64,000 nucleotides of DNA from Novipirellula artificiosorum (GTDB taxonomy: Bacteria > Planctomycetota > Planctomycetia > Pirellulales > Pirellulaceae), in contig NZ_SJPV01000004.1 of the NCBI RefSeq assembly GCF_007860135.1, positions 496,001 through 560,000 of the forward strand, given 5' to 3'. The notes under the pieces were generated by a model, which saw only the letters and a program-made list of their open reading frames with translations, searched no databases and had not been told where the DNA came from. Position numbers and translations under genes: made by a program. Below are positions 27,849-49,188 of this stretch, piece after piece; the first letter of the stretch is position 1, and the number at the start of each line of letters is the position of its first letter.

Positions 27849-28451
27849 ATGACCGTCAGCCCACCAGAGACCCGTGCCAGCTTGATTCTGCGGTTGCAGG
27901 ATGCTGCGGACGTGGTGGCGTGGGATGAATTCGCAGAGATTTATGCTCCGGTCGTGTATCGCTCGGCTCGGCGGCAAGGCTTGCAGGCGGCTGATGCGGA
28001 TAACGTTGTGCAGGAGGTTCTGGCGGCAGTGGCTCAGTCTGTGACGCAGTGGCTCCAGCGTGACGATCGGGGGCCGTTTCGCAAGTGGCTGTTCCGAATT
28101 GCCCGCAATACCGCCATTGATTTTCTCACGCGGCGAAAACATCGAGCGTGGGCCGAGGGTGGCGATGCTGTGGCGCGGCAACTGGATGAAGTCGAAGCGG
28201 CCGCCGATATGTCGAGTCAATTCGATCTGGAGTATTGCCGGGAAGTTTTCCTGCGGGCTTCCGAGGTCGTGCGGCGACAAGTGAGCGAAACGACCTGGCA
28301 GGCGTTCTACCGTACGAGTGTCCTGCAGGAATCGGTCGAAACGGTTGGGGATCACTTGGGGCTTCGAGCCGGCGCGGTGTATATCGCACGCTGTCGCGTG
28401 ATGAAACGATTGCAGCAGACGGTCGTCGAGTTGACAGGGGATGTGAAATGA
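27849..28451 (+). CDS. ECF sigma factor (kinase-linked)
   Basis: 200 residues. Region 2 carries the conserved ADADNVVQEVLAAVAQSV and FRKWLFRIARNTAIDFL; region 4 carries ETVGDHLGLRAGAVYIARCRVMKRL. Full length for a planctomycete ECF factor. It lies 25 bases ahead of the giant kinase gene and should be co-transcribed with it. Planctomycetes have ECF groups tied to Ser/Thr kinases, and this fits them. Control is probably by the kinase's N-terminal zinc-finger-like part (see next). Confidence 0.95.
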   Translation: MTVSPPETRASLILRLQDAADVVAWDEFAEIYAPVVYRSARRQGLQAADADNVVQEVLAAVAQSVTQWLQRDDRGPFRKWLFRIARNTAIDFLTRRKHRAWAEGGDAVARQLDEVEAAADMSSQFDLEYCREVFLRASEVVRRQVSETTWQAFYRTSVLQESVETVGDHLGLRAGAVYIARCRVMKRLQQTVVELTGDVK

Positions 28452-28476
28452 GAAATCCCAATGAGGAAAAAATCCA

Positions 28477-31400
28477 ATGATAAAGTGTGATGATGCAGCG
28501 CTCGCCGCTCTACTGAATACTTGTGACGACGTTGACGAGCACGACAGTGATGTGGCTCTGCACGTTGAGTCCTGTGAGTATTGCCAGAGCCGGTTGTCAG
28601 AGCTGGCCGCCGATGCTGAGCAATGGGACGCAGTGTCGCAATGGCTTTCACCAGGCGACGTGACTTCTGAGATTTACGCCGAGTCACTCGACGCCAGGGA
28701 ACGCTGGAAACGTCCGTCTGCCTGGACGGAGACAATGGCGAAGTCGCTGCTTTCGGCGGCCAGTCACCCCGAGATGCTGGGCCGCATTGGTCGCTACGAT
28801 GTGGAACGCCTGATCGGCAGCGGTGGGATGGGTGTGGTTTTCAAAGCTTACGACACGGAACTCAATCGGCCAGTGGCGGTGAAATTGCTGGCTCCGTACT
28901 TGGCTGGCAACGGTGCCGCACGCAAGCGGTTCGCTCGGGAAGCTCGCGCGGCAGCGGCGGTGGTGGATGATCATGTCGTGCCGATCCACAACGTCGAAAC
29001 CGAAAGCGAACATCCGTTTCTGGTGATGAAGTACATCGCGGGCGGTTCGCTGCAACAGCGGCTCGATCGCGAAGGGCCACTCGAAGTTTGCGAAGTCCTG
29101 CGGATCGGCATGCAGACCGCGAAAGGGCTGGCTGCCGCGCACGCTCAGGGTTTGATCCATCGCGATGTCAAACCGTCGAACATCCTCCTGGATGAAGGCG
29201 TCGAGCGAGCGCTGCTGACCGACTTCGGTCTGGCACGCGCCGAAGACGATGCTTGCTTGACTCGCAGCGGCTTCCATCCTGGCACGCCTCACTATATGTC
29301 GCCCGAACAAGTGCGCGGCGAAGCCATCGACGGGCGCAGCGATCTCTTCGGACTCGGCTGCGTACTGTACGCCTTGTGTACCGGCCATCCACCCTTCCGC
29401 GCCGAAACCAGCTACGCGGTTCTCCGTCGCATCACCGACACGGAACCTCGCCCGATTCGCGAAACCAACCCCGACGTTCCGTCATGGCTCGAACAAATCG
29501 TGATGAAGCTGCTCGCCAAATCGCGGGCTGACCGTTTTGACTCGGCGGCAGACGTGGCTGAGCTGCTGGAGGACTGTTTGGCCCACGTTCAGCAACCGAC
29601 AACGACTCCTCTGCCCGAGTCCATTGCCGCATTGGCCCCACGACAAAGCCGTCGTCCGCCGGTCGGAAAAGTCATCGCTGCGGCAGCCTTTGCTTTTTCA
29701 CTGATCTTCGCTGGCGTGTTGATCGTGCTGGAGTTGAACAAAGGGACGCTGACGATCGAGTCCGAGGCGGATGACGTGCCGATCCGCATTATGCAGGGGG
29801 ACGAAATTGTTGAGAAGCTGACAGTCACGAAGTCAGGCGGGTCTGTTCGCATAGCGGCGGGAATATACAAAATCGAATTCGATGGTGAATTTGAAGGAAT
29901 CTCGCTGAAGGACAACATCGTTTCGCTGAAGCGAAGACGGACGGAAACGATCAGGATCATCCGTGAAGTGAAGTCAATAGAAAACGGCGATAACGACGTC
30001 GCCGAGAAATCACATTCGCCGTTGAACGGTCCGTACAACTTCCGAACCTCGCCGCAATACAAAGATTTGTCAGCCGATGATCGTGGGAAACTCGATACCG
30101 TCCACAACGATTTCAACTTGTTGTGGGGAGCACTCCACAGATTTGCATCTGAGCACAACGACGCCGTACCAATGTCTCTGGAGGATCTCGTCCCTCGCTA
30201 TCTGAAGAGTCTTCCCAAAGATCCGTTTGCGACTGCGACAACGGCCGCGAAGACAGATCTCGGCATTTATCGCAGCTCACTCGGTGGCTACGGGTATCAC
30301 TATTGCCGTGGCAAAGGGCAATCCTGGATCGTTGCCAGCGTCGGCTTGCCGGATTTCCCGTACCTTGCGGAGCGAGGAAATGTCGGTCTTTACCTGCCCA
30401 AAGGGCGTTGGATTTCCAAGTCTCTTGATGTTGTGCCGCCGTTGGATGAAGAGACAAGCGCAGAGCACGGCGACGTCAACAATCAATTCGCTTCGCCAGC
30501 TCACGCCACAACCGTCAACAACCTTTCGCAGTTGATGGCCGCGCTGCATCAGTACCATGAGGACAAAGGCCACTTCCCGCCGGCATCGGTTTTGGGCAAG
30601 GATGGCAACGGTGGACCGCCGCATAGCTGGCGTGTTGAAATTCTGCCGTGGCTCGGTGAGCAGGCTCTGTACGACCAGTATCGCTTTGACGAACCGTGGG
30701 ACAGCGAACACAACAAACCGCTACTGTCGCAGATTCCGGATGTGTTTCGAGGAATCGTCAACAGTGAAGTTGACGATCCCAATTCGGTCTATTCAGCCTA
30801 CTATGCGGTAACGTCCAATGATGTGTCGAAACGGGCAGTGGAACTGGAAGAGGCAAAACGGCGAGGCCACGAAATCGACTCTTACGGCTTTGGGGGCGAC
30901 GCAGAGAACGAACGCAACAGCATAATTGAAGCGGAGGTTCCCGCAGGAACGACATTTTTCTGGAACCAACGTGGTTCTGAGTTTCGTTACATTCTGGACG
31001 GCACTTCCAACACGATCGCTATTGTCGAAGCTCGAAGAGACATCCCATGGACACAACCAACCGACATCGATTATTCCGCCGACAAGCCGCTACCACAGCT
31101 CGGACGCAATGACGGAGGATGGTTCGCTGCGTTTGCCGATGGCACTGTCAAGCAAATCGCTACCTACAACGATGAACGCACCATTCGTAACTTGCTAACA
31201 ATCGATGATGGCAATCAAGTTGTACCGCATCTCGTTAAACGATTTCAGATCCGAGAAGCGGTGGCTGCATCGGGCTCCGTGTTGCAGGGAGAAGGACTTT
31301 CCACGACTGCCCAACGACCGGGCGGAACGCTTTTAAGTTGGATGACTGATGAACCGCCGATCATCTGTGAAGACGACATCCAGGCGATTGAATTGAGGGA

Positions 31401-34335
31401 TGATCCTGCCAACAAATCCAGCTTCCAAGTAAAGATGACACTCTCGGATGTTGCGGGGAAGAGATTGCTGGCCGAGACCGCACGTATGTGTGAGCAGTCC
31501 ACGCCTGAACACTCGCCGCATCTGGTGATTTTGATTGACGGGTCCAGCGTGAGCGAACCTCGCGTTGTGACACCGATCGGCGCAACCCTGGTCATTTCCG
31601 GTCTAACCGGTCGCGAGCAAGCGCAGGTCATTGTATCGCACGTTCGCCGCACGATTGCCCTGGCGAATCAAGCCATCGACGAGCAACACGCATCCGAACC
31701 GGTTGAGGCTGGCGCGGCCACAATTCCGGTGATTCCAAAAAAACTCAGTGGGCATGAAATCGGAGAAGACGAAGAAGAGGTGTCGGATACCCTGAGTCGC
31801 TCCGAAGCCGCACCGGCCAATCGAATGGAAACCGAGATTGCCAGCTACAACGAGAGCACGAAAGCTCTCTACCCCAACCTGGCAGATTCACCGTTGACGC
31901 CAGAGGAATTGATCGCCTGGGCGTCTTGGTATGTGGAACGAGACGTGGATTTGTCACCGGGAATGAAGACCGCTCTAGGAACGATCGCTCAGGAACATCG
32001 ACTTCCATTCAATCTCACGTTTCGCGGGGGCGTGCAGGAATTGTTGGCATGCGAGCCACCGGTAGAGTGCTACCGAATCTCGGTTCATGATGAAGAAACC
32101 AACGAGATGCTGGCTATTCGCGAGCGATTCGTTCAGCCCTCCAAAGGGTTCCCGAAGCCCGATATGTCTGTGTACCACGAAGGAACACGACTGGCGACTG
32201 CCGTCAAACGTTTCAACGCGCGGCATCGCGAAATTAACGGACAACGGCAGTTGCCTTTGACGGAGGACGAAGTCGTCGCAGCCATTCTTTATGAGCAAAC
32301 GAAACGCGATGGAGCGGACGTCAGTGATTCACTGTTCGAGAGCCTTCAAAACATCGCTCACACACGGACTCTTCCTGAAGGAACGGAACTAGATTTGATC
32401 CCTACATTTGGGGTCCAAGGAGGGTCGACGTACACGATCTGTTCTATTCGCGTGAAGATGCCGCAAAACGAAAAGGGTCGTGAAGGCTGGACGTATGCGT
32501 TTGAGATTCGCAAGCAGTTTATTTCCGTGAAGCATGGCAATACTGGTGAGATTCATTGGGGCAAGCCAGCGGAGAATGGGTTGCAGGCTGGCGTTCGTAT
32601 CAGTCCGCCACTACAGAAATACAAAATCGGTCAACAGCTTGAAATTGAAATCGCCTATCGCAACATCTTCAGTGAACAGCTAGCCGGTTCGCTTCCCAAC
32701 TTCCTTTCTTATGACAAAGTCCAGGTTCACGATGCTGCTGGCGTTTCGATGACCTTAATCGATCGCGAGGCGGAAAAGATCATTGGTGGCTGGAGAGGCG
32801 CTGGCTGGAATGATCAGCCGCAGACTCTTCGCGGACGACCGATCGCGCTGGTGACAGAGCAAACTCAGCAGGACTCATTCGATCGTCGTACGCTGTTCGT
32901 GGTTGTACAGCCCGGCCAAAAGTACACATTGCAGTTTGCTGTTGGAAACTACGCGGATGGAGCCGAAGGATCAATCGAGACTGGCAAGGTCGAATTTTCC
33001 GTATTGGGTCCCGGAGCAGGTTCCACGACTTCCGATGAATCGAAAAACTCTGCTGTGGCTGTTCCGCCGATGGAATTCGACACGCTTGAGGATTTCCTGA
33101 AACCCGGCAAAGAACTGTTTGACCGGGAGATGCAGCAGATTGACGAGCGTTTGGCGTCAGCCGAAGAAGGGACTGCCGAGCATACTCTGTTCAAGACGAA
33201 GAAGAAACAATTGCAGGAGCGATGGGATCTGGGTGTTGCTCAGGTGAAAGGCATGGTTGCCGCAGCGAAAGCCGGGAACCCCGTGCAACTCGCACCGATT
33301 GTGATCCCAAGTAACCCAACTCCATGGCGAGCGCCGTTGCCCGATCCATTGCAGACGCATGATGAAGAGATAGCGAAAGTCCTCACTGGAACTTGGGATA
33401 TCAAGCAATTGACGGAGTCTGGCAAAGACGTTCCGTTCGACGAGGGCTCAGTAACCTTTGGCGCGAACATGTTGATGATGCGTTTCAAGCTGGGAGACGA
33501 AGAGGGCGAGCAACAGTACATGTACCGCATTTCTGGCGACAAGATCGACCTTTGGGAATACGATCCCGAAGAAACCCAGACGGATCGAACTCAGCCGATG
33601 CTCGGATCGTTCAGGCTCGCCAACAACACACTCCGTATCTGTCACCACGATCGACCAATGGAAGTCGGCCAGCCTCAACCACGCCCGCCGCTCCTACCCG
33701 GCAGGGGGCTTGTCTTTTGGGAACTGCAACGCAACGACGACCATAACAAGGGACGAGAAACCAAACCACTGTCAACTGATTCATGGGAAGTGCGGGTCGA
33801 TGGCAGATTCGGCACGCTGCAAGTTCTCAAGCCGGTTTCACTCACGGACGCAGTCGGCAAGTTCAACGAGGTGGCAAGAACACATGAAGTCGGGCGCGAT
33901 CAGCCCGAACTTACGGCAGAGGAAGTGGTCGGAGCATTGCGGCTGTTGGTGGCGAGAAAGGAATGCAACGAAGCGACCCGGAAAGACTTTCAGCAGGTCA
34001 TTGACTCACAGATGTTGCGGCCAGGTCACATAATCCAGTTCAACACGCAATCTGAAACGGAAGGGCACTTGTTTACGGTTTGGGCGATTCAATTTGGCGA
34101 TGATGATTCGTATGCGTGGTTCAAGATTCGCAACGCGACGTTGATATCCCGCCTGAAATCTGCGGAGGAACGAAAGGCATGGGAACAAGCGAAAGACGCA
34201 ATGGCGAAGAGCTTTCGCGAGGCCAAGCTAAGTGGTCAGTTGCGTCACAAAATGGAATCTCATGCGTCTGAACCAACAAATATCCCCGGCTTTAGCTTTG
34301 AAACAAATCTCGTGCCCTTGGACCGTTCAAAATGA
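28477..34335 (+). CDS. Giant Ser/Thr protein kinase with multi-domain secreted tail
   Basis: 1952 residues. In order: an anti-sigma-like zinc motif HVESCEYC (about 28-36); a Hanks-type kinase (about 103-360) with GSGGMGVVFKAY, HRDVKPSN (about 229), DFGLAR (about 249) and SPEQ; a membrane segment FAFSLIFAGVLIVLEL (about 405-420); a helical stretch; a DUF1559 domain (about 675-910, with WRVEILPWLGEQALYDQY); a SecD-like P1-head segment (about 965-1070); three copies of an unnamed repeat (about 1124, 1240 and 1789); a module starting HWGKPAENGLQAGVR (about 1358-1505); and a TIGR03067 domain (about 1629-1750). This probably senses the cell surface and regulates the sigma factor encoded just before it. 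Confidence 0.9.
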   Translation: MIKCDDAALAALLNTCDDVDEHDSDVALHVESCEYCQSRLSELAADAEQWDAVSQWLSPGDVTSEIYAESLDARERWKRPSAWTETMAKSLLSAASHPEMLGRIGRYDVERLIGSGGMGVVFKAYDTELNRPVAVKLLAPYLAGNGAARKRFAREARAAAAVVDDHVVPIHNVETESEHPFLVMKYIAGGSLQQRLDREGPLEVCEVLRIGMQTAKGLAAAHAQGLIHRDVKPSNILLDEGVERALLTDFGLARAEDDACLTRSGFHPGTPHYMSPEQVRGEAIDGRSDLFGLGCVLYALCTGHPPFRAETSYAVLRRITDTEPRPIRETNPDVPSWLEQIVMKLLAKSRADRFDSAADVAELLEDCLAHVQQPTTTPLPESIAALAPRQSRRPPVGKVIAAAAFAFSLIFAGVLIVLELNKGTLTIESEADDVPIRIMQGDEIVEKLTVTKSGGSVRIAAGIYKIEFDGEFEGISLKDNIVSLKRRRTETIRIIREVKSIENGDNDVAEKSHSPLNGPYNFRTSPQYKDLSADDRGKLDTVHNDFNLLWGALHRFASEHNDAVPMSLEDLVPRYLKSLPKDPFATATTAAKTDLGIYRSSLGGYGYHYCRGKGQSWIVASVGLPDFPYLAERGNVGLYLPKGRWISKSLDVVPPLDEETSAEHGDVNNQFASPAHATTVNNLSQLMAALHQYHEDKGHFPPASVLGKDGNGGPPHSWRVEILPWLGEQALYDQYRFDEPWDSEHNKPLLSQIPDVFRGIVNSEVDDPNSVYSAYYAVTSNDVSKRAVELEEAKRRGHEIDSYGFGGDAENERNSIIEAEVPAGTTFFWNQRGSEFRYILDGTSNTIAIVEARRDIPWTQPTDIDYSADKPLPQLGRNDGGWFAAFADGTVKQIATYNDERTIRNLLTIDDGNQVVPHLVKRFQIREAVAASGSVLQGEGLSTTAQRPGGTLLSWMTDEPPIICEDDIQAIELRDDPANKSSFQVKMTLSDVAGKRLLAETARMCEQSTPEHSPHLVILIDGSSVSEPRVVTPIGATLVISGLTGREQAQVIVSHVRRTIALANQAIDEQHASEPVEAGAATIPVIPKKLSGHEIGEDEEEVSDTLSRSEAAPANRMETEIASYNESTKALYPNLADSPLTPEELIAWASWYVERDVDLSPGMKTALGTIAQEHRLPFNLTFRGGVQELLACEPPVECYRISVHDEETNEMLAIRERFVQPSKGFPKPDMSVYHEGTRLATAVKRFNARHREINGQRQLPLTEDEVVAAILYEQTKRDGADVSDSLFESLQNIAHTRTLPEGTELDLIPTFGVQGGSTYTICSIRVKMPQNEKGREGWTYAFEIRKQFISVKHGNTGEIHWGKPAENGLQAGVRISPPLQKYKIGQQLEIEIAYRNIFSEQLAGSLPNFLSYDKVQVHDAAGVSMTLIDREAEKIIGGWRGAGWNDQPQTLRGRPIALVTEQTQQDSFDRRTLFVVVQPGQKYTLQFAVGNYADGAEGSIETGKVEFSVLGPGAGSTTSDESKNSAVAVPPMEFDTLEDFLKPGKELFDREMQQIDERLASAEEGTAEHTLFKTKKKQLQERWDLGVAQVKGMVAAAKAGNPVQLAPIVIPSNPTPWRAPLPDPLQTHDEEIAKVLTGTWDIKQLTESGKDVPFDEGSVTFGANMLMMRFKLGDEEGEQQYMYRISGDKIDLWEYDPEETQTDRTQPMLGSFRLANNTLRICHHDRPMEVGQPQPRPPLLPGRGLVFWELQRNDDHNKGRETKPLSTDSWEVRVDGRFGTLQVLKPVSLTDAVGKFNEVARTHEVGRDQPELTAEEVVGALRLLVARKECNEATRKDFQQVIDSQMLRPGHIIQFNTQSETEGHLFTVWAIQFGDDDSYAWFKIRNATLISRLKSAEERKAWEQAKDAMAKSFREAKLSGQLRHKMESHASEPTNIPGFSFETNLVPLDRSK

Positions 34336-35018
34336 AAAAAGGACAACTGATGAACGATGTGACCTCGGCCTGTGTTCGGTCGTTCGAATGGATGCTACAC
34401 GGTATGAACGTAGTAAAAACATCAGGCATTCTCATCTCCTGCCTCCTGCTGAGTCTTTCGATAGGCGTGGCTCAAGACTTTGAGTCCGCCCAAACCAACG
34501 ATGGCACTCAGGGCACGCAATCACCGGCGAAACGAATTGGCGCAGTCGAACTTCCGCCCGAAGAAAACAATTCGTCCAATGAACTGAACTCAAACCCTGC
34601 GATGGTGGTTGGGCCGAAAATGGACGGACTTGGTCAGCCCCGAGCCTGGAAATGGCGAAACCAGGTGCTTGACACAACTGTGACTGTCGAGGGGCTGGCA
34701 TTGGGAATGCCACCGATGAAGCCGTCGCACATGCCGACGCAACGAGTGATTTACGAAGGTGGCATCATCTTCGTTAAAAGTGCCAACTTTAAGAGCACAG
34801 ATTGCATCGGTAAACTGGTGAGGGTCACCGGCACGCTTCGGCTACAGCCGGCAAGTGTGTCTCGCTTCGACGGACACAAGGACGTGATTTCCCCTAAGTA
34901 TTACTTTATTGATTGTGAGCATCTCGAACTCCTTGATCGTGTCTCGGAATCCGTACTGATGTCGCCGGAGTTGACGGACGGTGGGGCTGATCACGTTGCC
35001 AATGAGTCCAAACAATAG
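34332..35018 (+). CDS. Exported protein of unknown function
   Basis: 228 residues; the first ATG overlaps the kinase stop (ATGA). ATG 34350 or ATG 34404 are alternatives; the latter opens directly on a signal peptide (NVVKTSGILISCLLLSLSIGV). The mature part contains VRVTGTLRL and a beta-rich region like an OB or barrel fold. It sits in the same operon as the kinase, so it may be a cofactor of its sensing part. Confidence 0.6.
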   Translation: MKKGQLMNDVTSACVRSFEWMLHGMNVVKTSGILISCLLLSLSIGVAQDFESAQTNDGTQGTQSPAKRIGAVELPPEENNSSNELNSNPAMVVGPKMDGLGQPRAWKWRNQVLDTTVTVEGLALGMPPMKPSHMPTQRVIYEGGIIFVKSANFKSTDCIGKLVRVTGTLRLQPASVSRFDGHKDVISPKYYFIDCEHLELLDRVSESVLMSPELTDGGADHVANESKQ

Positions 35019-35514
35019 TGGACGGCTCTGGCAACTGGATCGTCGCTCCACAGATGTGCCATGGCAGAGCCTACTCGCACACTGCGAAGGCTGCGATTTG
35101 GCAGCTCGATGCAGATGAACGAGTCCTACTTTCAACAGTCTACAATGACACAATGTTCACAAGCGTCTTGCCTCCTGACGGCGCGGACTATGTCGTCAAT
35201 CTAAGGTTACGTTGTGGGAAGACTGAACGTGTCGCCTTTCGGCCGGCGATTCTTTGTTCGACTTCTCGAACTCAGGAACGCAAACAAAGCTGGTTCATGC
35301 GGGCAAAGAGCAGTCGATCGACAACGATGACGGTTCTCGCGAGTGGACGATCCTTACGGCAAGACGGCGCAGCGAGAATAGCTCCGTGGAACTGAATAAA
35401 CAGCAAGTGCTCGATCTCGGCATCGACCTGCAAACCATCAAACAAATCGGGCTGCAATCCGTTCGCGGCACGATCGCCGTTAGTAACTTCGGCGTGACTG
35501 GCAACGTTTATTAG
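35018..35514 (+). pseudogene. Frameshifted remnant after the kinase operon
   Basis: A reading opens with GTG at 35018 (overlapping the previous stop) and continues WQLDADERVLLSTVYND, PPDGADYVVNLRL, then seems to continue in another frame from about 35240: LFDFSNSGTQTKLVHAG, EWTILTARR, LDLGIDLQTIKQIGLQSV, ending at 35514. The two halves look like one protein split by a frameshift; I do not recognise the family. Confidence 0.4.
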
Positions 35515-35570
35515 CGTGAACGAATGGAAAACAAAAAAGACTGATGCCCACAACCAAAATGGAAACACCC

Positions 35571-36164
35571 ATGCGAATACTCTTAATCTTGACTTTTGCC
35601 TTTACGGTTTCGGCGGCGGTCTTAGCCGACGACACGATTCCATTTGATGGATGGGTGTTTCCAGGTGCGAAATTGAAAGAACAGTCAACGACGCCGATTA
35701 CACGTACATCGGCTGACAAGAAACCCGTTCAGTCAGTTGAGAGCGGGCTGGGCCAATATCTCACGGAGAAACCGTTCCACGAAGTTGTCGCATTCTATGT
35801 CCGCAAGAGCGGACTCAGGCCGCCGAATTGGAGCATCCTGGGGCGTGAATACCCGGGAACCGATGTCCATATTCCGGCACACTTCTCGCACACCAATTTT
35901 TACCGTGAGGAACCAAGCATTACCGTGCTGCACTACATTCGCGAGGATGTTGCCACCGCTCAAGTACTCGTGACCGACCACCCGCAACTTGGTTTCATCA
36001 CCGTCTCGATTACACGCGGAAGGAACGACGACCAAACCGTGATCCAACTGATCCAACATTCATCAAAGCGAATACATCGGCGCAACGAACAATCTGACCA
36101 GAATACACAAGAGTCCTCTGCCGCTGCGGTCCTGAATTCAGAGTTTACAACTCGGACGCCATGA
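35571..36164 (+). CDS. Exported hypothetical protein
   Basis: 197 residues from ATG 35571. The signal peptide MRILLILTFAFTVSAAVLA is followed by a globular domain: FDGWVFPGAKL, QYLTEKPFHEVVAFYVRKSG, FSHTNFYREEPSITVLHYIRED, and VTDHPQLGFITVSITRGR. Same strand as the kinase region. No family recognised. Confidence 0.6.
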   Translation: MRILLILTFAFTVSAAVLADDTIPFDGWVFPGAKLKEQSTTPITRTSADKKPVQSVESGLGQYLTEKPFHEVVAFYVRKSGLRPPNWSILGREYPGTDVHIPAHFSHTNFYREEPSITVLHYIREDVATAQVLVTDHPQLGFITVSITRGRNDDQTVIQLIQHSSKRIHRRNEQSDQNTQESSAAAVLNSEFTTRTP

Positions 36165-36221
36165 CCCCGAAGAAGAGAACCCATCTGATACACTAAAGCT
36201 TCCTTTGAACGGAGATTGAAA

Positions 36222-38348: not shown

Positions 38349-38480
38349 CGGTCAATCGTTCAGTCATTCGGTTGTGTTTGCCATAGGGACGGCAGCAGGC
38401 GCGGTGACAACGGTAAATGGAATGGTCATGGACGCCAGTCTAATATCGGAGGAAGCAGGTAAGCGTATTCTCATCTCCCA

Positions 38481-40144: not shown

Positions 40145-40257
40145 GTCGGCATACTCGACGGCGAGTGGAAAACGGATTCATGGCTCATGACTGCAACGAT
40201 TCCATTCTACCCTTGGGAAACAATCGCCATCGTCGGTTGTTCGGCACCCGTCACGGG

Positions 40258-40698: not shown

Positions 40699-40808
40699 TG
40701 GGCATTTCTCCTTGCCGCCGAACGATTGCTAACCCCGTTAGGCCGTTAGGCGGCAGTTGACATTGATCGCAGGAAACGTTGCTTGGTTCGCCGTCCGTGA
40801 TGCATCGA

Positions 40809-41324: not shown

Positions 41325-41723
41325 ATGAATAGACGATTCCAAATGGGAAATAGATCCGCACGTATGGATGATTATGACTAGCACGTGCCATGGTCCTCGA
41401 ACAAAACCGTTTCAGAACGATGGTAACCGTGACGCGCAAGTCATAATACTCGACCGTAGCAAAGTTTAATGTTCAATGCGAGCAGCGGCAGCGTGAGCGA
41501 GGCCATGAATCGGGCGGCAATTCCGACAGATCGTCCGGCCGTGTGCCGGAGAGCTGCGCGAGGAGGTCCCGAACGAAGGCAAACGGCTCGACTTGGTTCG
41601 CCTGCGCACTGTCCATTCCCCGCGCTACCGAAAGCAATCCGGACGGTCAAACAGGAGACGGCGATAGGGCGAATCAAGGACCGTCGATGACGAGGCTGTT
41701 GGTTTCTTGGGCTTGCGGAACTC
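41325..41723. other. Divergent spacer, no gene seen
   Basis: About 400 bases between the leftward lipoproteins and the rightward GntR operon. Open frames exist on both strands here but none has a motif or ribosome site. The region should hold the leftward promoter(s) as well as the start of the GntR promoter at its right end. Confidence 0.45.
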
Positions 41724-41761
41724 TTGACACGCGACAGGTGCATTGCTAGAGTAATGCACAT
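41724..41761 (+). promoter_or_regulatory. GntR-operon promoter with overlapping operator
   Basis: TTGACA (41724-41729), a 17-base spacer, then TAGAGT (41747-41752) as -10 box. The perfect inverted repeat GTGCATT-N8-AATGCAC (41738-41759) spans the -10 box. The GntR ATG follows two bases after the repeat (41762), so transcripts would have almost no leader. A bound regulator there would block its own promoter. This is a textbook layout for an autoregulated YtrA-type GntR gene. Confidence 0.75.
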
Positions 41762-42166
41762 ATGCAGTCGAGCGAACTTTCATTTTCCGTCTCACCGTCG
41801 TCTGGTGTGCCGATTTACCGGCAGATCATTGACCAGGTCAACGCGCTCGTGGTCAGTGGACGGCTGAAGCCTGGTGATGGGCTGCCAAGCATTCGAAAAC
41901 TGGCTGAGTCGCTGGAAGTCAACATGATGACGGTCAGCAAAGCTTACGCTCGACTGGAGGTTGACGGCGTCCTGATCCGCATGCGGGGCGTGGGAATGGC
42001 GGTCGCTGAACAATCCGTTCCAAATTCGGCGACCGTCAAGGATCGGCAAGCAGAACTTCGGACGCTGATCGAGCAGGCCGTGTTGCGTGGATTGCAATTG
42101 AGACTTACCGATCGGCAAATCGTCGCCGTCGTGGAATCCATCTTACGAGAGAATCGCAATGAATAA
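41762..42166 (+). CDS. GntR-family regulator, YtrA type
   Basis: 134 residues. IYRQIIDQVNALVVSGRLKPGDGLPSIRKLAESLEVNMMTVSKAYARLEVDGVL is the wHTH of GntR. The short C-terminal part (TLIEQAVLRGLQLRLTDRQIVAVVESIL) is the two-helix end typical of the YtrA subfamily, which controls ABC transporters. It overlaps the ABC gene by eight bases and has an operator over its own promoter. Confidence 0.9.
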   Translation: MQSSELSFSVSPSSGVPIYRQIIDQVNALVVSGRLKPGDGLPSIRKLAESLEVNMMTVSKAYARLEVDGVLIRMRGVGMAVAEQSVPNSATVKDRQAELRTLIEQAVLRGLQLRLTDRQIVAVVESILRENRNE

Positions 42167-43052
42167 GCCAGACGTCCGCATCGAAATATCAAAACTCTGC
42201 AAGTCGTTTGCGAAGCACCCGGTCCTTCAGGATGTTGATTGGTGCATTCCGTCTGGCACCGTGGTGGGATTGCTGGGAACCAATGGCTCTGGAAAGACCA
42301 CGCTGATTCAATGCTTGCTGGGATTGTTGAAAGCGGATTCCGGCCGCGTGACGATCGACGACGAGGACGCCTGGGATTTGTCTGCCAATACAAAGGCACG
42401 CATCGGTTACGTCGATCAACGACCACAGTTCTACCCGTGGATGAACGGAGCAGACCTGTTGAAATACGTGGGAGCGATGTACCCGCACTGGAATGATGCG
42501 CTGTGTGCCGAACTTGCGAAGCAATGGATTGTCCCGTTGTCAAAACCCTTCGGAAAACTCTCGCCCGGCGAGCAGCAAAAGGTTGCTATTCTAACAGCTT
42601 TGGGCAACGAACCCGATTTGCTGATTCTCGACGAACCGGTCAGCAGCCTCGATCCGCTGGCACGACGTGCTTTTCTGAAATCGCTGCTCGAAATCGCACG
42701 CAATGAAAGTCGGACGATCGTCTTTTCGACGCATATCACATCGGATGTCGAACGGGTTGCCTCGCACGTCGCGTTTCTGCATGAAGGCAAGATACAGTGG
42801 TTCGACGAACTGGACGTAACGAAGGAACGCATTCGGCGTCTGCGATTCCGATCGAATCAGGATTTCCCGACAACCCTTTCGATTCCTGGGGCACTGCATG
42901 TTCAGGTTGATGGTTCGATGGCGGTGGCAGCAGTGGCGGGAACGGAGAAAGCTGACATCGATGCTGTTTGCGCTCGTTATGACGCATCCGTCGAAGTCGA
43001 AGAACTGAACTTGGAAGAAATTTTCCTGGAGCTGCATCATGTGGACGCGTAG
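42159..43052 (+). CDS. ABC transporter ATP-binding protein
   Basis: 297 residues. Walker A GTNGSGKTT (about 40-48), Q-loop near YVDQRPQF, signature LSPGEQQ (134-140), Walker B LLILDEP (154-160), and a switch His in STHITSD. Two overlapping starts (eight bases with GntR, 14 with the permease) show a tight three-gene operon. The export partner is the large membrane protein that follows. Probably an exporter of an antibiotic or envelope component; substrate unknown. Confidence 0.95.
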   Translation: MNKPDVRIEISKLCKSFAKHPVLQDVDWCIPSGTVVGLLGTNGSGKTTLIQCLLGLLKADSGRVTIDDEDAWDLSANTKARIGYVDQRPQFYPWMNGADLLKYVGAMYPHWNDALCAELAKQWIVPLSKPFGKLSPGEQQKVAILTALGNEPDLLILDEPVSSLDPLARRAFLKSLLEIARNESRTIVFSTHITSDVERVASHVAFLHEGKIQWFDELDVTKERIRRLRFRSNQDFPTTLSIPGALHVQVDGSMAVAAVAGTEKADIDAVCARYDASVEVEELNLEEIFLELHHVDA

Positions 43053-45096
43053 CTATTGGGTTTTCATAACCTACTTAAAGCGACCTTTGTCGTGGCTATT
43101 TGCCGTGGCTGCGGTCCTTTGTTCGGTCGTGCTTTACAACTTGATCGATGACAAGGTTCGGAGCGTCGACAACGAAGTTCTTTCGGGCAAGGTGATCAGT
43201 TCCTTTGAGCAACTGGAAAGCGTGCTCGCGGGTGATCCCGCAAGACCTGTTGAGCTCGACTATGGACAACTCTTCGGACTCGCCACGCGCAAGGTGTTTC
43301 CGCATCCTCGTAGCGAGATGCTTCATATCGGTCCAGAAGAACAGGCGTTGATCCATGCCGCTCTCGAACCCGTAGAAAACCTGAAAAATGTTGTGGCGAT
43401 GAAGGCAGGTCATGCGGTTGATCAAGCGACCATCAATCGCATTGCCAAGTTCAAGACGTTGAAGCGATTGTCGATTTTTGCAGACCTTGGTTATGAATCG
43501 CTGGACTTTCAGCCGCTGAGCAACCTCTCCGAACTTGAAGTGCTTCAACTGGGTGTGGTCAATCGTGTCGAATCGCTGAGGCCGTTGGCAGAGTTACCGA
43601 ACTTGCACACGCTTGGAATCGGATACCCGATGCTGTTGCATAAGCATGGTCTGGACGAGTTTGCCAGGCTTCCGCACTTGCGAACTCTCTCGTTGCCCGA
43701 TTTGCGTTCCTATCGAGGGCTTCAAGACAGCGTGGGCAAATTGCGGCAATCCAAGACGTTACAGCGAATCAACTACGGTGTTTCCTGGGACGATGCCGAT
43801 GCGTTGGCTGACATGCGATCGCTAGTCGCAGGGATTGACGTCGAACCCTCGAAGTATCGTCCCGCCCGGCACGTGGTTCTGTTCTTTGCACTGCTCGCCG
43901 TCGCGATTGCAGGATTCCCGACGATGCATCTCGCTGGCCAACTTTCACTGCCATCGTCCTATTTGGTTCCGCTGTATCGTGCGCCTCACTATCTTGTTGC
44001 CTGCCTGTTGATCACAACGCTGATTAGTTTGGCGACTGCCGGGCTGGTCAGTCTCGGTGCGAATGCATTGACGGCATCGTCGTTGATGCTCTGCGTTGCT
44101 AGCCTGAATGTTTGGTCTGGAACCCGAGTCCTTCGCAAAGGCAACGTCACTGCGAAGACTTGGTTTGTGAATCTACTGGTAGCGTTACCCGTCAGTTTAT
44201 TTCCGTTTCTTCTCCTTGCATCGAGCTTCTCTCGTCCCATGTGGGTGGAAAACTATCTGATGTCAGACCAGGTCGTGATTCCGTTGTTGTGTCTTGTGAT
44301 CGCGGCGCGGCTGGGCTGGCTCGCCTACTGCAATCTCGAATCGCGACTGGCAACGCGAATCGAACTCGGCCTGCCCGCTGTCTTGTCGTTCCACGATCTT
44401 CAGGCACTTAGTGCCGCACAGGCTGACACTTCTTCATCGGCATTGTCTGGCAACCCTCAAATGGCAGTGGGCATGAAGTTGCCGATTGTTGCCAAAGCAG
44501 CACTGGCCGTGACGCTGTTGGCGATACCGCTACGAGCGCTCGGCTACGAAGACCTTGGGCGAACCGCGGCGATGACTTGCCTCGGTGCATTTTTCTTATG
44601 TGTGTACCTGACGGGAGTGAAGTGGTGGAAGGAAATGCCGTACTTTGCCGCCACAACGACGCGGCCGCCAGATCGAATGGGGCATGTCAATCGACTGATG
44701 CGAGGCATCACTGCAGATCTCGTTGCTTTGGCGCCCTTGCTATTGGCCTGCATTGTTGCCACCAGCCTCTTTGGCCCTTGGCACTGGGAAGGAATCGGGC
44801 TGCGTTTCTTGCACGGCGTCGTCGCGGTTGCCAGCATCACACTGGCCGTTTACGCGGTCATTCTTTGGATCGTGGCGATTCGTAGCGTCATTGGAATCGC
44901 GATCCTAGCCTTTGTCTGCTACATGCCGTGTTCCATGATGGTGATGCAGGTCGCCGTGATTGACCGCATGGCATCGCCACTACTATCGGGGATCACGGTC
45001 GTGCTTTCCGGTTGCGCTTTCGCGTTGATTTCAGTCGCAGCAATCTATTTCGCAAGACGGTACTTTGCCCGAATCGAATGGGCACGATTCCATTGA
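43039..45096 (+). CDS. ABC-operon membrane protein with leucine-rich repeats
   Basis: 685 residues. A first membrane segment (about 17-35), then an outside domain with leucine-rich repeats (about 110-260): LKRLSIFADLGYES, LSELEVLQLGVVNRVESLRPL, LPNLHTLGIGYP and LPHLRTLSLPDLRS. After residue about 270 come ten or so membrane segments to the end. This is an unusual permease: YtrA-operon permeases normally lack repeats. The LRR domain may bind a peptide or sense a ligand. Its start overlaps the ATPase stop. Confidence 0.8.
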   Translation: MWTRSYWVFITYLKRPLSWLFAVAAVLCSVVLYNLIDDKVRSVDNEVLSGKVISSFEQLESVLAGDPARPVELDYGQLFGLATRKVFPHPRSEMLHIGPEEQALIHAALEPVENLKNVVAMKAGHAVDQATINRIAKFKTLKRLSIFADLGYESLDFQPLSNLSELEVLQLGVVNRVESLRPLAELPNLHTLGIGYPMLLHKHGLDEFARLPHLRTLSLPDLRSYRGLQDSVGKLRQSKTLQRINYGVSWDDADALADMRSLVAGIDVEPSKYRPARHVVLFFALLAVAIAGFPTMHLAGQLSLPSSYLVPLYRAPHYLVACLLITTLISLATAGLVSLGANALTASSLMLCVASLNVWSGTRVLRKGNVTAKTWFVNLLVALPVSLFPFLLLASSFSRPMWVENYLMSDQVVIPLLCLVIAARLGWLAYCNLESRLATRIELGLPAVLSFHDLQALSAAQADTSSSALSGNPQMAVGMKLPIVAKAALAVTLLAIPLRALGYEDLGRTAAMTCLGAFFLCVYLTGVKWWKEMPYFAATTTRPPDRMGHVNRLMRGITADLVALAPLLLACIVATSLFGPWHWEGIGLRFLHGVVAVASITLAVYAVILWIVAIRSVIGIAILAFVCYMPCSMMVMQVAVIDRMASPLLSGITVVLSGCAFALISVAAIYFARRYFARIEWARFH

Positions 45097-45238
45097 TACC
45101 GATTGAGTTTGAATATCACGCCGGCGATTGTCTGCATCTTGATGGAGCGTAGCAGAGTGGTCCCTAAAAGGTCACAAAATTTCTTCCAGTCGTGTCAAAT
45201 TTCGGGCGCGGGCTGCGTAATCCTTTGTAAGAGGGATA

Positions 45239-45868
45239 ATGGCAGTTATGACACGATCACCGGAAACCAGCGATAGCCTGCTGCTGAGCGTGCGAGATAC
45301 GGACGATCGGGCGGCGTGGGATCGGTTTGTCGCAATCTACCGCCCAATGGTGTACCGCATCGGTCGCCGCGCTGGGTTGCAGGACAGCGACGCCGAGGAT
45401 CTGGCTCAACGCGTGATGATCTCAGTTGCTGGCGCGATCCCGGATTGGGAAAAAGACCCGCACCAGGGTGGCTTTCGAGGATGGCTCAATCGGATTGCTC
45501 GAAATGCTCTGATCAGCATGCTTCGCAGTCGGAAACTCAGCGAAGCCAACGGGGTGATTGGCAAAGGCGGACTCCCAAAGCAGTTGCTGTCGCCCGAAGC
45601 ATCTGATGATGAAATCGATCGCATCATTCGTCAGGAACATCATCGCAGTCGTTTGCGGTGGGCGGCAGAGCAGGTGCGACACGAATTTACTCAACCGACA
45701 TGGCGAGCCTTCTGGCTGACCACGCTTGGTGAGGTCTCGGTTCCCGACGCGGCGGAACAACTTCAAATCTCAGTCGGAAGTGTTTACGCGGCGCGCAGTC
45801 GGATCATGCGGAAGCTGCAGGAACTTGCTCGCGACAGTGACCTATTTAATGCGGAGGATTGTTTATGA
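45239..45868 (+). CDS. ECF sigma factor (second kinase-linked)
   Basis: 209 residues from ATG 45239 (ATG 45248 also possible). Region 2: DAEDLAQRVMISVAGAIPDW and FRGWLNRIARNALISML; region 4: VPDAAEQLQISVGSVYAARSRIMRKL. Full length. The stop overlaps the kinase start by four bases (ATGA), so the pair is translationally coupled. Same organisation as the pair at 27849-34335. Confidence 0.95.
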   Translation: MAVMTRSPETSDSLLLSVRDTDDRAAWDRFVAIYRPMVYRIGRRAGLQDSDAEDLAQRVMISVAGAIPDWEKDPHQGGFRGWLNRIARNALISMLRSRKLSEANGVIGKGGLPKQLLSPEASDDEIDRIIRQEHHRSRLRWAAEQVRHEFTQPTWRAFWLTTLGEVSVPDAAEQLQISVGSVYAARSRIMRKLQELARDSDLFNAEDCL

Positions 45869-48800
45869 ACGGCCAACCACTCAATCGATGCGATATTGCA
45901 AAGCTGGATGCGCTGCTGCGTGGTACTCTTTCCCAAGATGAAGCCGCGGACGTGGAAGCTCACCTGTCCGGTTGCAGAACTTGTGCCGAGCGAATTCAGC
46001 TTGCGGCGGTACCCGAAACGTCGTGGGATGAAGCTCAGTCGTTGCTTTCGCTGGACGAGTTCGACGGGTTATCGAGTTTGGCGTCAGCCAGTTCACTGTT
46101 TCCGTCAGACGCTGACGATCACGTCGATTCGCCAACGAAAGATCTACTGTCGCGGGAAATCTCCGGCTGGCTTGATCCGACTGATGATCCGGCGATGCTT
46201 GGGCGGTTTGCCGGATATGAAATCGTGGGCATCATCGGCCATGGCGGTATGGGAATCGTCCTGAAGGGGTTTGAGCGATCACTCAATCGGTACGTGGCAA
46301 TCAAGATCTTGGCTCCGCGTTTGGCGACGAATGGATCGGCTCGAAAGCGATTCGCTCGCGAAGCTCAAGCAGCCGCGGCCGTGCGGCACGACAATGTGAT
46401 CGCGATTCATCGTGTCGACGAATGGCATGGACTGCCATTCCTGACAATGCCGTACGTGGGTGGTGTTTCGTTACAGAAACGCATTGACCGCGAAGGCCCG
46501 CTGAGTATCGAACAAACACTACGTGTCGGAGTGCAGATCGCGGCCGGACTTGCAGCGGCTCATGCCCAGGGGCTCGTACATCGCGACATCAAACCGGCCA
46601 ACATCCTGTTGGAGCACGGCGTTGAACGTGTCACGATCACGGACTTTGGCCTTGCTCGTGCAGCCGACGACGCCTCAGTCACTCGCACCGGTGTGATCGC
46701 GGGAACACCGCAGTATATGTCACCGGAACAGGCGGAGGCGAAACCGCTCGACGCGCGTAGCGATCTGTTCAGTCTCGGCAGCGTGCTCTACGTGATGGCC
46801 ACCGGACGCCCGCCATTTCGAGGAGAGGGTAGCTTCGATGTCCTGAAACGTATCGTCAACGAACCGGCGCGATGCATGCGCGAGATCGAACCAAAAGTTC
46901 CCGAATGGTTTGAATGCGTGGTGAATCGGCTCCACGCCAAATCACCGGACCAGCGGCCACAATCCGCGGAAGCTGTTGCCGAGCTACTCGAAGACTGCCT
47001 CGCTCACGTCCAGCAACCAACAACATTTCCGCTTCCGGAATCCGTTGCCACGCTGTCAGCCAAACAAGGCAATCGCCCGCCGTTGAAGAAGTTCATCGCC
47101 GCCGCAGCCTGCGCCTTCTCGCTGATCTTCGCGGGTGTGTTGATCGTGTTGGAGCTCAACAAAGGCACGCTGACGATCGAATCGGACGCCGACAATGTTC
47201 CCATCAGGATCAAGCACAACGAAGACATCGTGAAGCGGCTGTTGGTGAGTCGCGACGGAGCAACAACACGCTTACATGCGGGACAGTACACGCTCGAAAT
47301 CGACGGACCGCAATTGACTTACGACATTGCCGATGGAACTGTGATCGTCAAACGAGGCGCGACCAACATCGCGAAAGTCACTTACGCAGAAAGCAACGAT
47401 CATGCTGCGGAACAATTAACGCCACGGCAAAGTTTGTCAGCTGCAGTCATTGAATTCAACAACATGTATTCAAAAGACGGAAGAGGCAGGCCGCAGCAGC
47501 CTCTCACACAAGATGAGATCATAGCGTGTCTGCTGTGGAGATTGGGAAACGGCGAACTATCGGACGAACTCGCGGAAGCATCGCGGATGATGCTCGACAC
47601 CCGAGAACGACTTATGCCCGCAGGTTGGCAACTCACCGGCGGGCTCAAGCGTCGTCGACATGAGAATGGAAGCACTCATACCTGGGAAGTGAATCTGGAG
47701 ACGGATGGACTCTCCAGGCCCATTTCCATTCGTCAAACAGCGATCAGTCCGCCAGAATCGATGAGAACCGTAAGCGTAACACGGGAGGGTGGCATTGAAA
47801 CGATTCCGCTTGCGTCTGTGATTGAATCCTTCAATGCAACCTGGCAGAATCACGACGACTTTGAGAGCACTTCCCATCGAGCCCTTATTCACGGCCTTGA
47901 ACTGCCTCCTCTGACAATCGATGAAGTCCTCGCAGCTATCTCGCTGTCGCTATCCACCCGCGATGAAGGGGGCATGTATGACTCAACTTTTCAACGTCTG
48001 CAGGCCACTGCCGCAACGCATCGGTTGCCCGCGGACGTTCGATTTGAGTTGATTCATTCGATTAAAAACGACATCGACCAGTGGTTCACAACTTCGCTGA
48101 TCCGCATGCTTGTGCCGAGCATCGGCAACTCAGAATCACCGTACCTGCTCACCGTTCGGCGGCAATTCATTGAAACCGATTCCAACAAGCCTGCGGCGAC
48201 ACACTGGGGAAAACCTGACCGCAATGGATTGCAGGCGGGTGTTCGACTGGTGCCTGCTCAGCGAACCTATCAACATGGACAGGTTGTGGATATCGAGTTC
48301 CTGTACCGGAGCACTACCAGCAAAAAAGTCCCGGCTACATTGCCTGCTACCTTTCAATTCGGAAAAGTCTCAGGGATTCGCCTCGAACGCGTAAGCTTTG
48401 TGCAGCCCAAGTGGCCTGATGGTTCGGTCCACACGTTGATTGGCAACGAACCGGTGGTTGTGCGAGGGCATCGAATGCAAATCTGCTTTGACAGTGACGA
48501 AGCATTGAAGCCCGGCGTCAACCTGAAGGCAATCACGCGGCCTAAAGCGAATCACTACGTGCGGATCGCGGTGCCGAATCCTGGCGACGGTGCTGCGGAC
48601 GCACCGCTTGACATCTCTGATCGCCTTTTTTTCAGCATCCCTTCGCTCACGCCTCCCAAAGTTCTTCCGATATCTGAATTGCATTACTATCAACATTGGG
48701 GGACGTCCGTGCCTGGATACCGGCGCCCTGAGCAATCGACTCCCGACCCTGAGTTCATCGATCCCTTTCAAATTGGCGTGTCGCTCGGGCCCGCCGATAA

Positions 48801-49188
48801 GAGCCAAGTTCCCGCGTACTACTCCAGCGGACTGCAAGTCATTAAAGTAGCACCGTACAGCCCCGCAGATTATGTGGGCATCGAGGTTGGCGACATCCTG
48901 CTCTCATGGGAGGGTAATCAGATTTACGGTGACGATCCGAACAAACCCTTTGTGAACTACAACGGCCCGAACAACCAACTGCGCGCGGCACTTGAGATGA
49001 ATGCCAAGAGCAAGGGGTGGGCAACGTTCAACATGGATTTTGATTTGCTGGATCACCGCTCGGGTGAAGTAATCCGTATTTTTCCGTGGTTTGGTGAAAC
49101 GGCAGGCGGCAGTCCCAACAAAACGGAGGTGATCAGACGCTTAATGGATCGCAAACGTCTTCGCGAAGAGTCGAGCGGGAAGGATTAG
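45865..49188 (+). CDS. Ser/Thr protein kinase with zinc-finger-like front and PDZ end
   Basis: 1107 residues from ATG 45865. In order: an anti-sigma-type motif HLSGCRTC (about 33-41); a Hanks kinase (about 113-370) with GHGGMGIVLKGF, HRDIKPAN (about 239), DFGLARAADD and SPEQ; a membrane segment FSLIFAGVLIVLEL with the same NKGTLTIES juxtamembrane as the first kinase; two copies of the unnamed repeat (about 526-610 and 649-732); the HWGKPDRNGLQAGVR module (about 779-922); and a PDZ domain (about 990-1080, with GLQVIKVAPYSPADYVGIEVGD). It probably senses cell-surface stress and releases the sigma factor. Confidence 0.9.
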   Translation: MNGQPLNRCDIAKLDALLRGTLSQDEAADVEAHLSGCRTCAERIQLAAVPETSWDEAQSLLSLDEFDGLSSLASASSLFPSDADDHVDSPTKDLLSREISGWLDPTDDPAMLGRFAGYEIVGIIGHGGMGIVLKGFERSLNRYVAIKILAPRLATNGSARKRFAREAQAAAAVRHDNVIAIHRVDEWHGLPFLTMPYVGGVSLQKRIDREGPLSIEQTLRVGVQIAAGLAAAHAQGLVHRDIKPANILLEHGVERVTITDFGLARAADDASVTRTGVIAGTPQYMSPEQAEAKPLDARSDLFSLGSVLYVMATGRPPFRGEGSFDVLKRIVNEPARCMREIEPKVPEWFECVVNRLHAKSPDQRPQSAEAVAELLEDCLAHVQQPTTFPLPESVATLSAKQGNRPPLKKFIAAAACAFSLIFAGVLIVLELNKGTLTIESDADNVPIRIKHNEDIVKRLLVSRDGATTRLHAGQYTLEIDGPQLTYDIADGTVIVKRGATNIAKVTYAESNDHAAEQLTPRQSLSAAVIEFNNMYSKDGRGRPQQPLTQDEIIACLLWRLGNGELSDELAEASRMMLDTRERLMPAGWQLTGGLKRRRHENGSTHTWEVNLETDGLSRPISIRQTAISPPESMRTVSVTREGGIETIPLASVIESFNATWQNHDDFESTSHRALIHGLELPPLTIDEVLAAISLSLSTRDEGGMYDSTFQRLQATAATHRLPADVRFELIHSIKNDIDQWFTTSLIRMLVPSIGNSESPYLLTVRRQFIETDSNKPAATHWGKPDRNGLQAGVRLVPAQRTYQHGQVVDIEFLYRSTTSKKVPATLPATFQFGKVSGIRLERVSFVQPKWPDGSVHTLIGNEPVVVRGHRMQICFDSDEALKPGVNLKAITRPKANHYVRIAVPNPGDGAADAPLDISDRLFFSIPSLTPPKVLPISELHYYQHWGTSVPGYRRPEQSTPDPEFIDPFQIGVSLGPADKSQVPAYYSSGLQVIKVAPYSPADYVGIEVGDILLSWEGNQIYGDDPNKPFVNYNGPNNQLRAALEMNAKSKGWATFNMDFDLLDHRSGEVIRIFPWFGETAGGSPNKTEVIRRLMDRKRLREESSGKD

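Follow-up and report, generated by a model that had tools for sequence, protein, structure and literature searches.

Introduction

In the EcfP/PknT and EcfK/PknS systems (ECF43), the sigma factor is activated by a neighbouring kinase, and the ECF gene lies beside that of a Hanks-type Ser/Thr kinase, as it does in the two modules described here. ECF43 sigma factors require phosphorylation because their region 2.2 lacks acids. The absence of this acidic motif is described in the available part of PMC8999054, whereas the subfamily found in our sequence mostly keeps it. Kinase-linked ECF groups with planctomycete examples are ECF59, 61, 62 and 217; in the accessible sections of the same source their neighbour is a kinase and not usually an anti-sigma factor, and for this reason such groups are predicted to be controlled by phosphorylation. 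Unlike these groups as there described, an anti-sigma factor would here sit inside the kinase.

A second set of relatives consists of the anti-sigma factors ChrR, RslA, RsiW and DdvA. They share with the N-terminal segments ("fronts") of the kinases studied here an Hx3Cx2C motif, a Cys or His upstream of it, short helices and a gene placed directly behind an ECF gene; they differ in that the anti-sigma domain here heads a Hanks-type receptor kinase. The nearest parallel among the PDB matches is DdvA, whose front is found on a CHAT-domain protein.

Kinases and anti-sigma factors are also known to act together. In Mycobacterium tuberculosis the Ser/Thr kinase PknB phosphorylates the zinc anti-sigma factor RshA, and SigH is freed (excerpts of PMC13147305 and PMC8999054). 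PknB and RshA are two separate proteins, whereas in the modules described here both parts lie on one polypeptide. SpoIIAB is both an anti-sigma factor and a protein kinase and, like RsbW, is a GHKL kinase. The same double role in a single protein, as is proposed here, is described for RsbW in the available portion of PMC7406223. RsbW and SpoIIAB phosphorylate an anti-anti-sigma factor and are not receptor kinases, whereas the kinases studied here are; no GHKL family was found in the latter, all of whose kinase matches are of the PF00069 kind (Pfam, E≤1).

Kinase-linked ECF factors are thus already known; the built-in anti-sigma domain is new as far as we have searched. In the literature covered, some of it available in part, we found no kinase of this sort described as having a zinc or anti-sigma domain; the 2021 ECF reclassification and the 2012 paper on planctomycete ECF factors fall outside that coverage and may mention the domain.

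Two ECF-kinase modules in the window

The window, the whole 64,000-nucleotide stretch of Novipirellula artificiosorum DNA that was analysed, contains two modules with the following features, all on the + strand.

27849..28451, +, ECF sigma factor 1 (ECF1), 200 aa, region 2.2 motif DADN (PF04542 43.9 bits; TIGR02937 over cut-off)
28452..28476, +, spacer of 25 bases between ECF1 and kinase 1 (gene coordinates)
28477..34335, +, kinase 1, 1952 aa, with an anti-sigma-like front, a Hanks-type kinase domain, a single membrane segment and a large outside part
28477..28662, +, kinase 1 front, ASDI-like, about residues 1-62 (48.5 bits, profile without window sequences)
28795..29541, +, kinase 1 protein kinase domain, residues 107-355 (PF00069 151 bits)
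29671..29727, +, kinase 1 membrane segment, residues 399-417 (hydropathy scan)
45239..45868, +, ECF sigma factor 2 (ECF2), 209 aa, region 2.2 motif DAED (PF04542 48.6 bits)
45865..45868, +, four-base overlap, ATGA, shared by the end of ECF2 (stop codon) and the beginning of kinase 2 (ATG 45865)
45865..49188, +, kinase 2, 1107 aa, with an anti-sigma-like front, a Hanks-type kinase domain, a single membrane segment and an outside part
45865..46098, +, kinase 2 front, ASDI-like, residues 1-78 (zf-HC2 over cut-off; PDB profile matches; model mf07d88d2c530)
46216..46980, +, kinase 2 protein kinase domain, about residues 118-372 (PF00069 158.5 bits)
47095..47151, +, kinase 2 membrane segment, residues 411-429 (hydropathy scan)

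An earlier note on this DNA had reported a 25-base gap in the first module and a four-base overlap in the second, and the gene coordinates bear this out; its outline of both kinases, an HxxxCxxC start followed by a kinase, a single membrane segment and an outside part, likewise holds. PF00069 was found in both, and both translations show the catalytic Lys along with the HRD and DFG motifs. The best 19-residue Kyte-Doolittle mean is 2.72 in kinase 1 and 2.68 in kinase 2, with next-best values of 1.13 and 1.38. The outside part of kinase 1 has a DUF1559/SBP_bac_10 match and that of kinase 2 a weak PDZ match below cut-off.

ECF1 and ECF2 belong to the same subfamily. Both contain sigma-70 region 2 (PF04542) and exceed the cut-off of TIGR02937, which spans regions 2 and 4; region 4 lies just under the Pfam cut-off in ECF2 (24.2 vs 25.7) and was not found by Pfam in ECF1. 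The ECF and kinase genes of each module are probably co-transcribed.

The kinase front resembles zinc anti-sigma factors

The motif reads HVESCEYC in kinase 1 (residues 29-36) and HLSGCRTC in kinase 2 (residues 33-40), with C4, H29, C33 and C36, and C9, H33, C37 and C40, as the respective likely zinc ligands. In a set of 156 ECF-kinase pairs, where the H, C and C of the motif are present by construction, a fourth likely ligand was found ahead of the motif in profile columns 8-11 (Cys in 131 or His in 24, 155/156 pairs). This Cys/His was not used to select the pairs, and other four-column windows, off the motif, hold Cys/His in at most 35/156.

Pfam called zf-HC2 (PF13490) in kinase 2 (27.6 bits, cut-off 22.2) and did not call it at E≤1 in kinase 1, the N-terminus of which scored 48.5 bits against a profile from which both window proteins had been left out. 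Among 47 N-termini scanned one by one, 28 matched zf-HC2 at E≤0.01. When profile A5 (47 N-termini, the kinase 2 front included) was compared with all PDB sequences, six matches were obtained at E≤1, every one an anti-sigma factor, with E-values of 9.2e-6 for DdvA, 0.0025 for RslA, 0.0046 for RsiW, and 0.029 and 0.031 for ChrR; the remaining one is the CHAT-domain protein with the same DdvA front (E 2.5e-4). The kinase 1 front alone gave four weak PDB matches, of which the third, RsiW (E 0.8), was the sole anti-sigma factor.

The predicted structure of the kinase 2 front (model mf07d88d2c530) has helices at residues 11-19, 24-36, 38-48, 51-62 and 64-78, and Hx3Cx2C spans the second and third of these (24-36 and 38-48), as in class I anti-sigma domains (ASDI). 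The predicted helices are compatible with the ASDI fold, a bundle of three helices with a fourth added, of which helix 1 contacts region 4 of the sigma factor and helix 4 contacts region 2 (available portion of PMC7406223). Five of the six Foldseek matches to this model are RslA, ChrR or RsiW chains, individually weak (E 1.4-5.2), and VIA-align gave matches that are likewise weak singly, with Z 5.6 for RsiW and 5.5 for RslA. By sequence homology, the front is a class I anti-sigma-like domain of the zinc type.

Distribution in the host genome

HxxxCxxC occurs in 9 of the 90 N. artificiosorum kinase N-termini examined. Shuffled kinase N-termini gave a mean of 0.068 and a maximum of 1 (500 shuffles), and a chance motif was rejected. 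All nine motif kinases follow ECF genes of one subfamily, ECF1 and ECF2 included, and all belong to the 13 host kinases preceded by a PF04542 gene (P 1e-9); the 13 were read from match tables by eye, and two possible further sigma-like genes ahead of host kinases (L019, L107) would make this 9/15 instead of 9/13. The front profile splits the host kinases in the same way, with 23.3-70.3 bits for the nine vs at most 6.4 for the rest. The front is absent from the 77 examined host kinases without a PF04542 gene ahead and from four host kinases behind other ECF genes. A general planctomycete kinase feature was likewise rejected, as the motif was found in 0/81 other host kinases examined. At least six host PF00069 matches (four strong, two weak) lie outside the N-terminus survey, and a genome-wide zf-HC2 search gives no match beside them.

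Conservation in planctomycetes

Searches covered the planctomycete phylum. Among 190 unique ECF loci of the subfamily, 169 have a same-strand kinase downstream, meaning the first same-strand kinase frame in the stretch, at gaps of up to 856 bases and not always the next gene. HxxxCxxC is present in 155 of these 169 kinases, a count that describes this subfamily only, as the ECF seeds were taken from motif-bearing pairs, and that differs from the 156 pairs by one duplicate. The motif had been proposed for comparison across orthologues, and it holds up there. For 113 ECF matches outside the host genome, 108 were examined and 5 omitted (one contig edge, one fragment, three low score). Scanning with the complete ECF alignment A1 was uninformative. 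The front profile found no trace of the domain in 8 of the 14 motif-less kinases behind an ECF gene of the subfamily, so that some relatives do without it.

In the reverse direction, starting from the front, 11 of 13 front-bearing kinases from seven other genomes were found immediately behind a gene for this ECF, and for two no such ECF lies in the stretch examined; the 13 loci omit host-genome rows and one locus of genome G020. The search turned up the front in at least 9 of 149 genomes, host included, with at most 30 candidates per genome scored.

A probable model for sigma factor control

We consider it probable that the kinase front holds a default-active sigma factor at the membrane and that kinase signalling frees it. 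Each module would be an operon of two genes, one for a sigma factor and the other for a receptor that includes an anti-sigma factor in the same protein. At the cytoplasmic N-terminus of the kinase, a class I anti-sigma domain of the zinc type would bind the co-translated ECF sigma factor, keeping it off RNA polymerase and at the membrane. A signal at the outside part would switch on the adjacent Hanks-type kinase, and phosphorylation by the active kinase, whether of the front, of the linker or of sigma itself, would then free the sigma factor. We infer that the front binds and inhibits sigma, and that a signal and a phosphorylated residue lead to release rather than hold; one protein may thus sense, hold sigma and phosphorylate in one pathway. 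The earlier note's proposal that the zinc-motif front is the sigma-holding part gains strong support from its homology, its restriction to ECF-linked kinases in the host genome and its presence at 155/169 subfamily loci, while contact with sigma is what we infer.

If this is true, the kinase-linked ECF factors of the subfamily are not without an anti-sigma factor, as their neighbourhoods suggested, but are held by the kinase. An anti-sigma domain within the kinase would change the phosphorylation-control model for a large subfamily, and would bring together in one polypeptide two main ways in which bacteria signal, the receptor kinase and the sigma/anti-sigma pair. The chances seem about even that planctomycetes widely use such one-protein sigma receptors, in which a transmembrane kinase doubles as the anti-sigma factor and, by phosphorylation inside the complex, releases the sigma factor translated along with it.

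Among 154 ungapped region 2.2 motifs, the first position is acidic in 151, the fourth in 149, both in 146 and neither in 0; one of the nine host ECF factors is without the first acid (HVPD). With DADN and DAED in the window and the acids kept in 146/154 of the set, an inactive sigma factor of the EcfP type was rejected, since retention of the acidic region 2.2 implies that sigma should be active without phosphorylation. The front might instead only dock sigma as a substrate, which the kinase would activate by phosphorylation as in EcfP/PknT, the front not being inhibitory. Kinase-adjoining planctomycete ECF groups are indeed predicted to be phosphorylation-activated (available part of PMC8999054), kinase-linked ECFs, ECF59 included, are said to have lost the acidic motif in the accessible text of one review (PMC8103513), and near the sigma N-terminus a Thr is kept in 150/156 and a Ser/Thr in 142/156. 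However, the DAED-like acids kept here, unlike in ECF43, speak for a sigma factor that works unphosphorylated, the motif is retained outside ECF43, in groups whose mechanism may be a different one (PMC8999054, same portion), and the solved relatives of the front domain are anti-sigma factors. We regard docking alone as rather unlikely.

The kinases look active by their motifs: in the 156-pair set HRDxKxxN is present in 150, VAxK in 147 and DFG in 139. This retention of catalytic motifs in nearly all members, together with the position of the kinase directly behind the front, to which it is joined by a partly conserved linker, argues against a front that holds sigma and lets it go through proteolysis or zinc/redox chemistry while the kinase domain acts on other substrates. 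Cytoplasmic zinc anti-sigma domains are often redox sensors (available portion of PMC7406223) and RseA is released by proteolysis (accessible text of PMC8103513), but we find this route improbable, more so than docking. Within the linker, one column ahead of the kinase domain is Ser/Thr in 81/127 and Ala in kinase 1. This linker position and the Thr near the sigma N-terminus are candidate phosphorylation sites; a conserved one is not established.

Contact between sigma and front was approached by structure prediction and by co-variation. Prediction of an ECF-front fusion gave a pTM of 0.50, and further comparison rows for this fusion cover its sigma part only. Inter-protein covariation placed one pair only above the maximum of 20 re-pairings. 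Distance correlation was higher for ECF and kinase (0.77) than for ECF and front (0.71), so that co-inheritance alone could explain it, and it is indecisive because the genes are neighbours. It is very improbable that the zinc domain serves the kinase in some general way, in regulation or dimerisation, with no sigma binding: the fusion and covariation give no demonstrated sigma contact and 2/13 fronts are without such an ECF upstream, but the domain is absent from the 77 examined host kinases not behind a PF04542 gene, and everything that it matches in the PDB at E≤1 is an anti-sigma factor.

Gene arrangement at individual loci

The four-base ECF-kinase overlap of module 2 recurs at 46 of the 169 kinase-followed loci. 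Among the 19 loci without a kinase in one set, L161, L168 and L169 stop at contig edges. L168 still shows the motif, together with the beginning of a kinase, and at L206 the motif lies inside a 126-residue frame without a kinase match.

Two ECF/kinase modules in the window

Each module consists of an ECF sigma factor gene followed by a kinase gene, and every coordinate in the earlier note was correct on re-reading.

27849-28451, plus strand: ECF1, followed by kinase 1 after a 25-base gap
28477-34335, plus strand: kinase 1, 1952 residues, motif HVESCEYC
45239-45868, plus strand: ECF2, with an ATGA overlap with kinase 2
45865-49188, plus strand: kinase 2, 1107 residues, motif HLSGCRTC

The order of parts is the same in both kinases: an N-terminal segment carrying the HxxxCxxC motif (the front; 106 residues in kinase 1, 117 in kinase 2), a PF00069 kinase domain, one membrane segment and a large outside part. 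The juxtamembrane and membrane stretch is nearly identical between the two, and this likeness suggests a recent duplication or conversion.

The front resembles zinc anti-sigma domains

The likeness to zinc anti-sigma factors that had been claimed for the front was supported, as to its nature, by PDB profile matches and a likely fourth ligand. A profile of 47 fronts, searched against all PDB chain sequences (E<=1), had six different hits: RslA, RsiW, two ChrR sequences, DdvA, and a CHAT-domain protein whose front is that of DdvA. Of the window kinases only kinase 2 exceeded the Pfam cut-off for zf-HC2; the kinase 1 front scored 48.5 bits (E 2.9e-15 among 90 N-termini) with a profile of relatives' fronts from which both window proteins were excluded. 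Of 156 ECF/kinase pairs, selected for the motif's H, C and C, 155 have a likely fourth zinc ligand (Cys 131, His 24) 23-26 columns ahead of the His, compared with Cys or His in at most 35 of the 156 in four-column windows elsewhere. The Cys version of the putative zinc site reads roughly C-x23-24-H-x3-C-x2-C (commonest distances 24 and 25 columns), an arrangement which we take to resemble the one in RsrA-type anti-sigma factors.

The model of the kinase 2 front reached pLDDT 92-95 over residues 11-40 (ten-residue block means; whole model 74.8, pTM 0.41), with helices predicted at 11-19, 24-36, 38-48, 51-62 and 64-78. Foldseek gave six matches at E<=10, each of them weak: two to RslA, two to RsiW, one to ChrR and one to a Mediator chain; VIA-align gave Z 5.6 against RsiW and Z 5.5 against RslA. 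Judged from sequence, the front is an anti-sigma-like domain.

The front accompanies one ECF subfamily

In the N. artificiosorum genome (102 PF00069 matches, with some kinases matched in more than one piece), the motif occurs at the N-terminus of 9 of 90 kinase frames examined, all nine with an ECF gene upstream on the same strand. The ECF factors at these nine loci all belong to a single subfamily, with phmmer E<=1.4e-25 against ECF1 and ECF2, whereas other sigma-like genes near kinases gave 3.6e-6 or worse. The association of the motif with the 13 ECF-following kinases has a hypergeometric P of 1e-9; the four of these that lack the front come after other ECF genes. Front profile scores were 23.3-70.3 bits for the nine and 6.4 for the next kinase. 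Four of the nine lie within about 50 kb of one contig, C4 (27849-49188 in the window and C4:563402-572873).

ECF profile matches were found in 29 of 40 genomes, N. artificiosorum included. Outside it, a kinase comes after the ECF gene at 89 of the 108 loci examined, and 79 of these kinases have the motif. A named-genome scan gave 80 loci; two carry the bare title 'bacterium' and the rest planctomycete titles, which include Singulisphaera acidiphila DSM 18658, Stieleria sedimenti, Stieleria tagensis and Rhodopirellula sp. JC639. Kinases follow 72 of the 74 new loci, 68 with the motif; at the other two the sequence ends 204 and 73 bases past the ECF gene. Combined, 190 unique loci yielded 169 kinases, and 155 of these carry the motif, the subfamily seeds being motif-bearing pairs; presence in most orthologues is thus borne out. 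The genes overlap by four bases in 46 of the 169 and are separated by at most 60 bases in 137.

Among the 14 motif-less kinases, an anti-sigma profile matched four (L252, L292, L257, L268; E<=2.1e-5) and, weakly, two (L192, L139), with no match in eight. This pattern recalls anti-sigma groups that contain both zinc and non-zinc domains (PMC7406223). The reverse search, from the front and with at most 30 candidates scored per genome, found 13 loci in seven other genomes, every one at a kinase start; this ECF subfamily lies just upstream in 11, and not in L315 and L321.

A proposed role for the front

That the front holds the sigma factor, as the earlier note proposed, stands as a proposal, unlike its anti-sigma-like nature. 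Structure prediction, covariation and distance correlation do not support it. For a read-through fusion of ECF and kinase front (locus L271; 69-row alignment), pLDDT was 80 and pTM 0.50, so an interface is not predicted. Only one ECF-front pair covaried above the maximum of 20 re-pairings. Distance correlation was higher for ECF-kinase (0.77) than for ECF-front (0.71), with a partial ECF-front correlation, given the kinase, of 0.50.

ECF43 factors, according to PMC8999054, stay inactive until phosphorylated because acids are missing from region 2.2; other kinase-linked groups keep such an acidic motif and may work differently. ECF59 is counted among the groups that lost it (PMC8103513). In contrast to ECF43, the present subfamily mostly keeps the acids: of 154 ungapped region 2.2 motifs, 151 have an acid first, 149 fourth and 146 both, and one of the nine N. 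artificiosorum factors has HVPD. By default these sigma factors should therefore be active, so that they would require an inhibitor, a part that the front could play. Translational coupling of ECF and kinase would supply matched amounts.

Kinase motifs are largely intact in the 156 pairs (HRDxKxxN 150, DFG 139, VAxK 147). In M. tuberculosis, phosphorylation of the anti-sigma factor RshA by PknB frees SigH (PMC13147305, PMC8999054). The planctomycete kinase might combine phosphorylation and sigma release in the same way, although within a single polypeptide rather than separate proteins. Ser or Thr occupies a linker column ahead of the kinase domain in 81 of 127 aligned sequences; kinase 1 has Ala there. 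Kinase-linked ECF factors and zinc anti-sigma domains are both known, and their combination is new as far as the literature searched shows.

Other sigma-related loci

14477-15199: a third member of the ECF subfamily (E 1.1e-56), with a region 4 end that departs from the family
49285-52276: further ECF gene directly after kinase 2, overlapping a membrane protein that carries PF00144, a beta-lactamase-family domain
61995-62387: ECF remnant of the same subfamily, region 2 only
62257-63054, minus strand: sigma-like gene overlapping that remnant

No PF00069 match of this genome follows the gene at 14477-15199, which looks like a decayed module. Elsewhere, at L206, the frame after the ECF gene has 126 residues and the motif HLLHCDAC but no kinase match, apparently a broken or separate front. 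Three distant subfamily members (L226, L227, L228) precede kinases with short N-termini that show no anti-sigma trace by profile and share a C-P-x-Y stretch ahead of the kinase domain. The PF00144 protein is possibly another sigma-linked membrane protein of unusual build.
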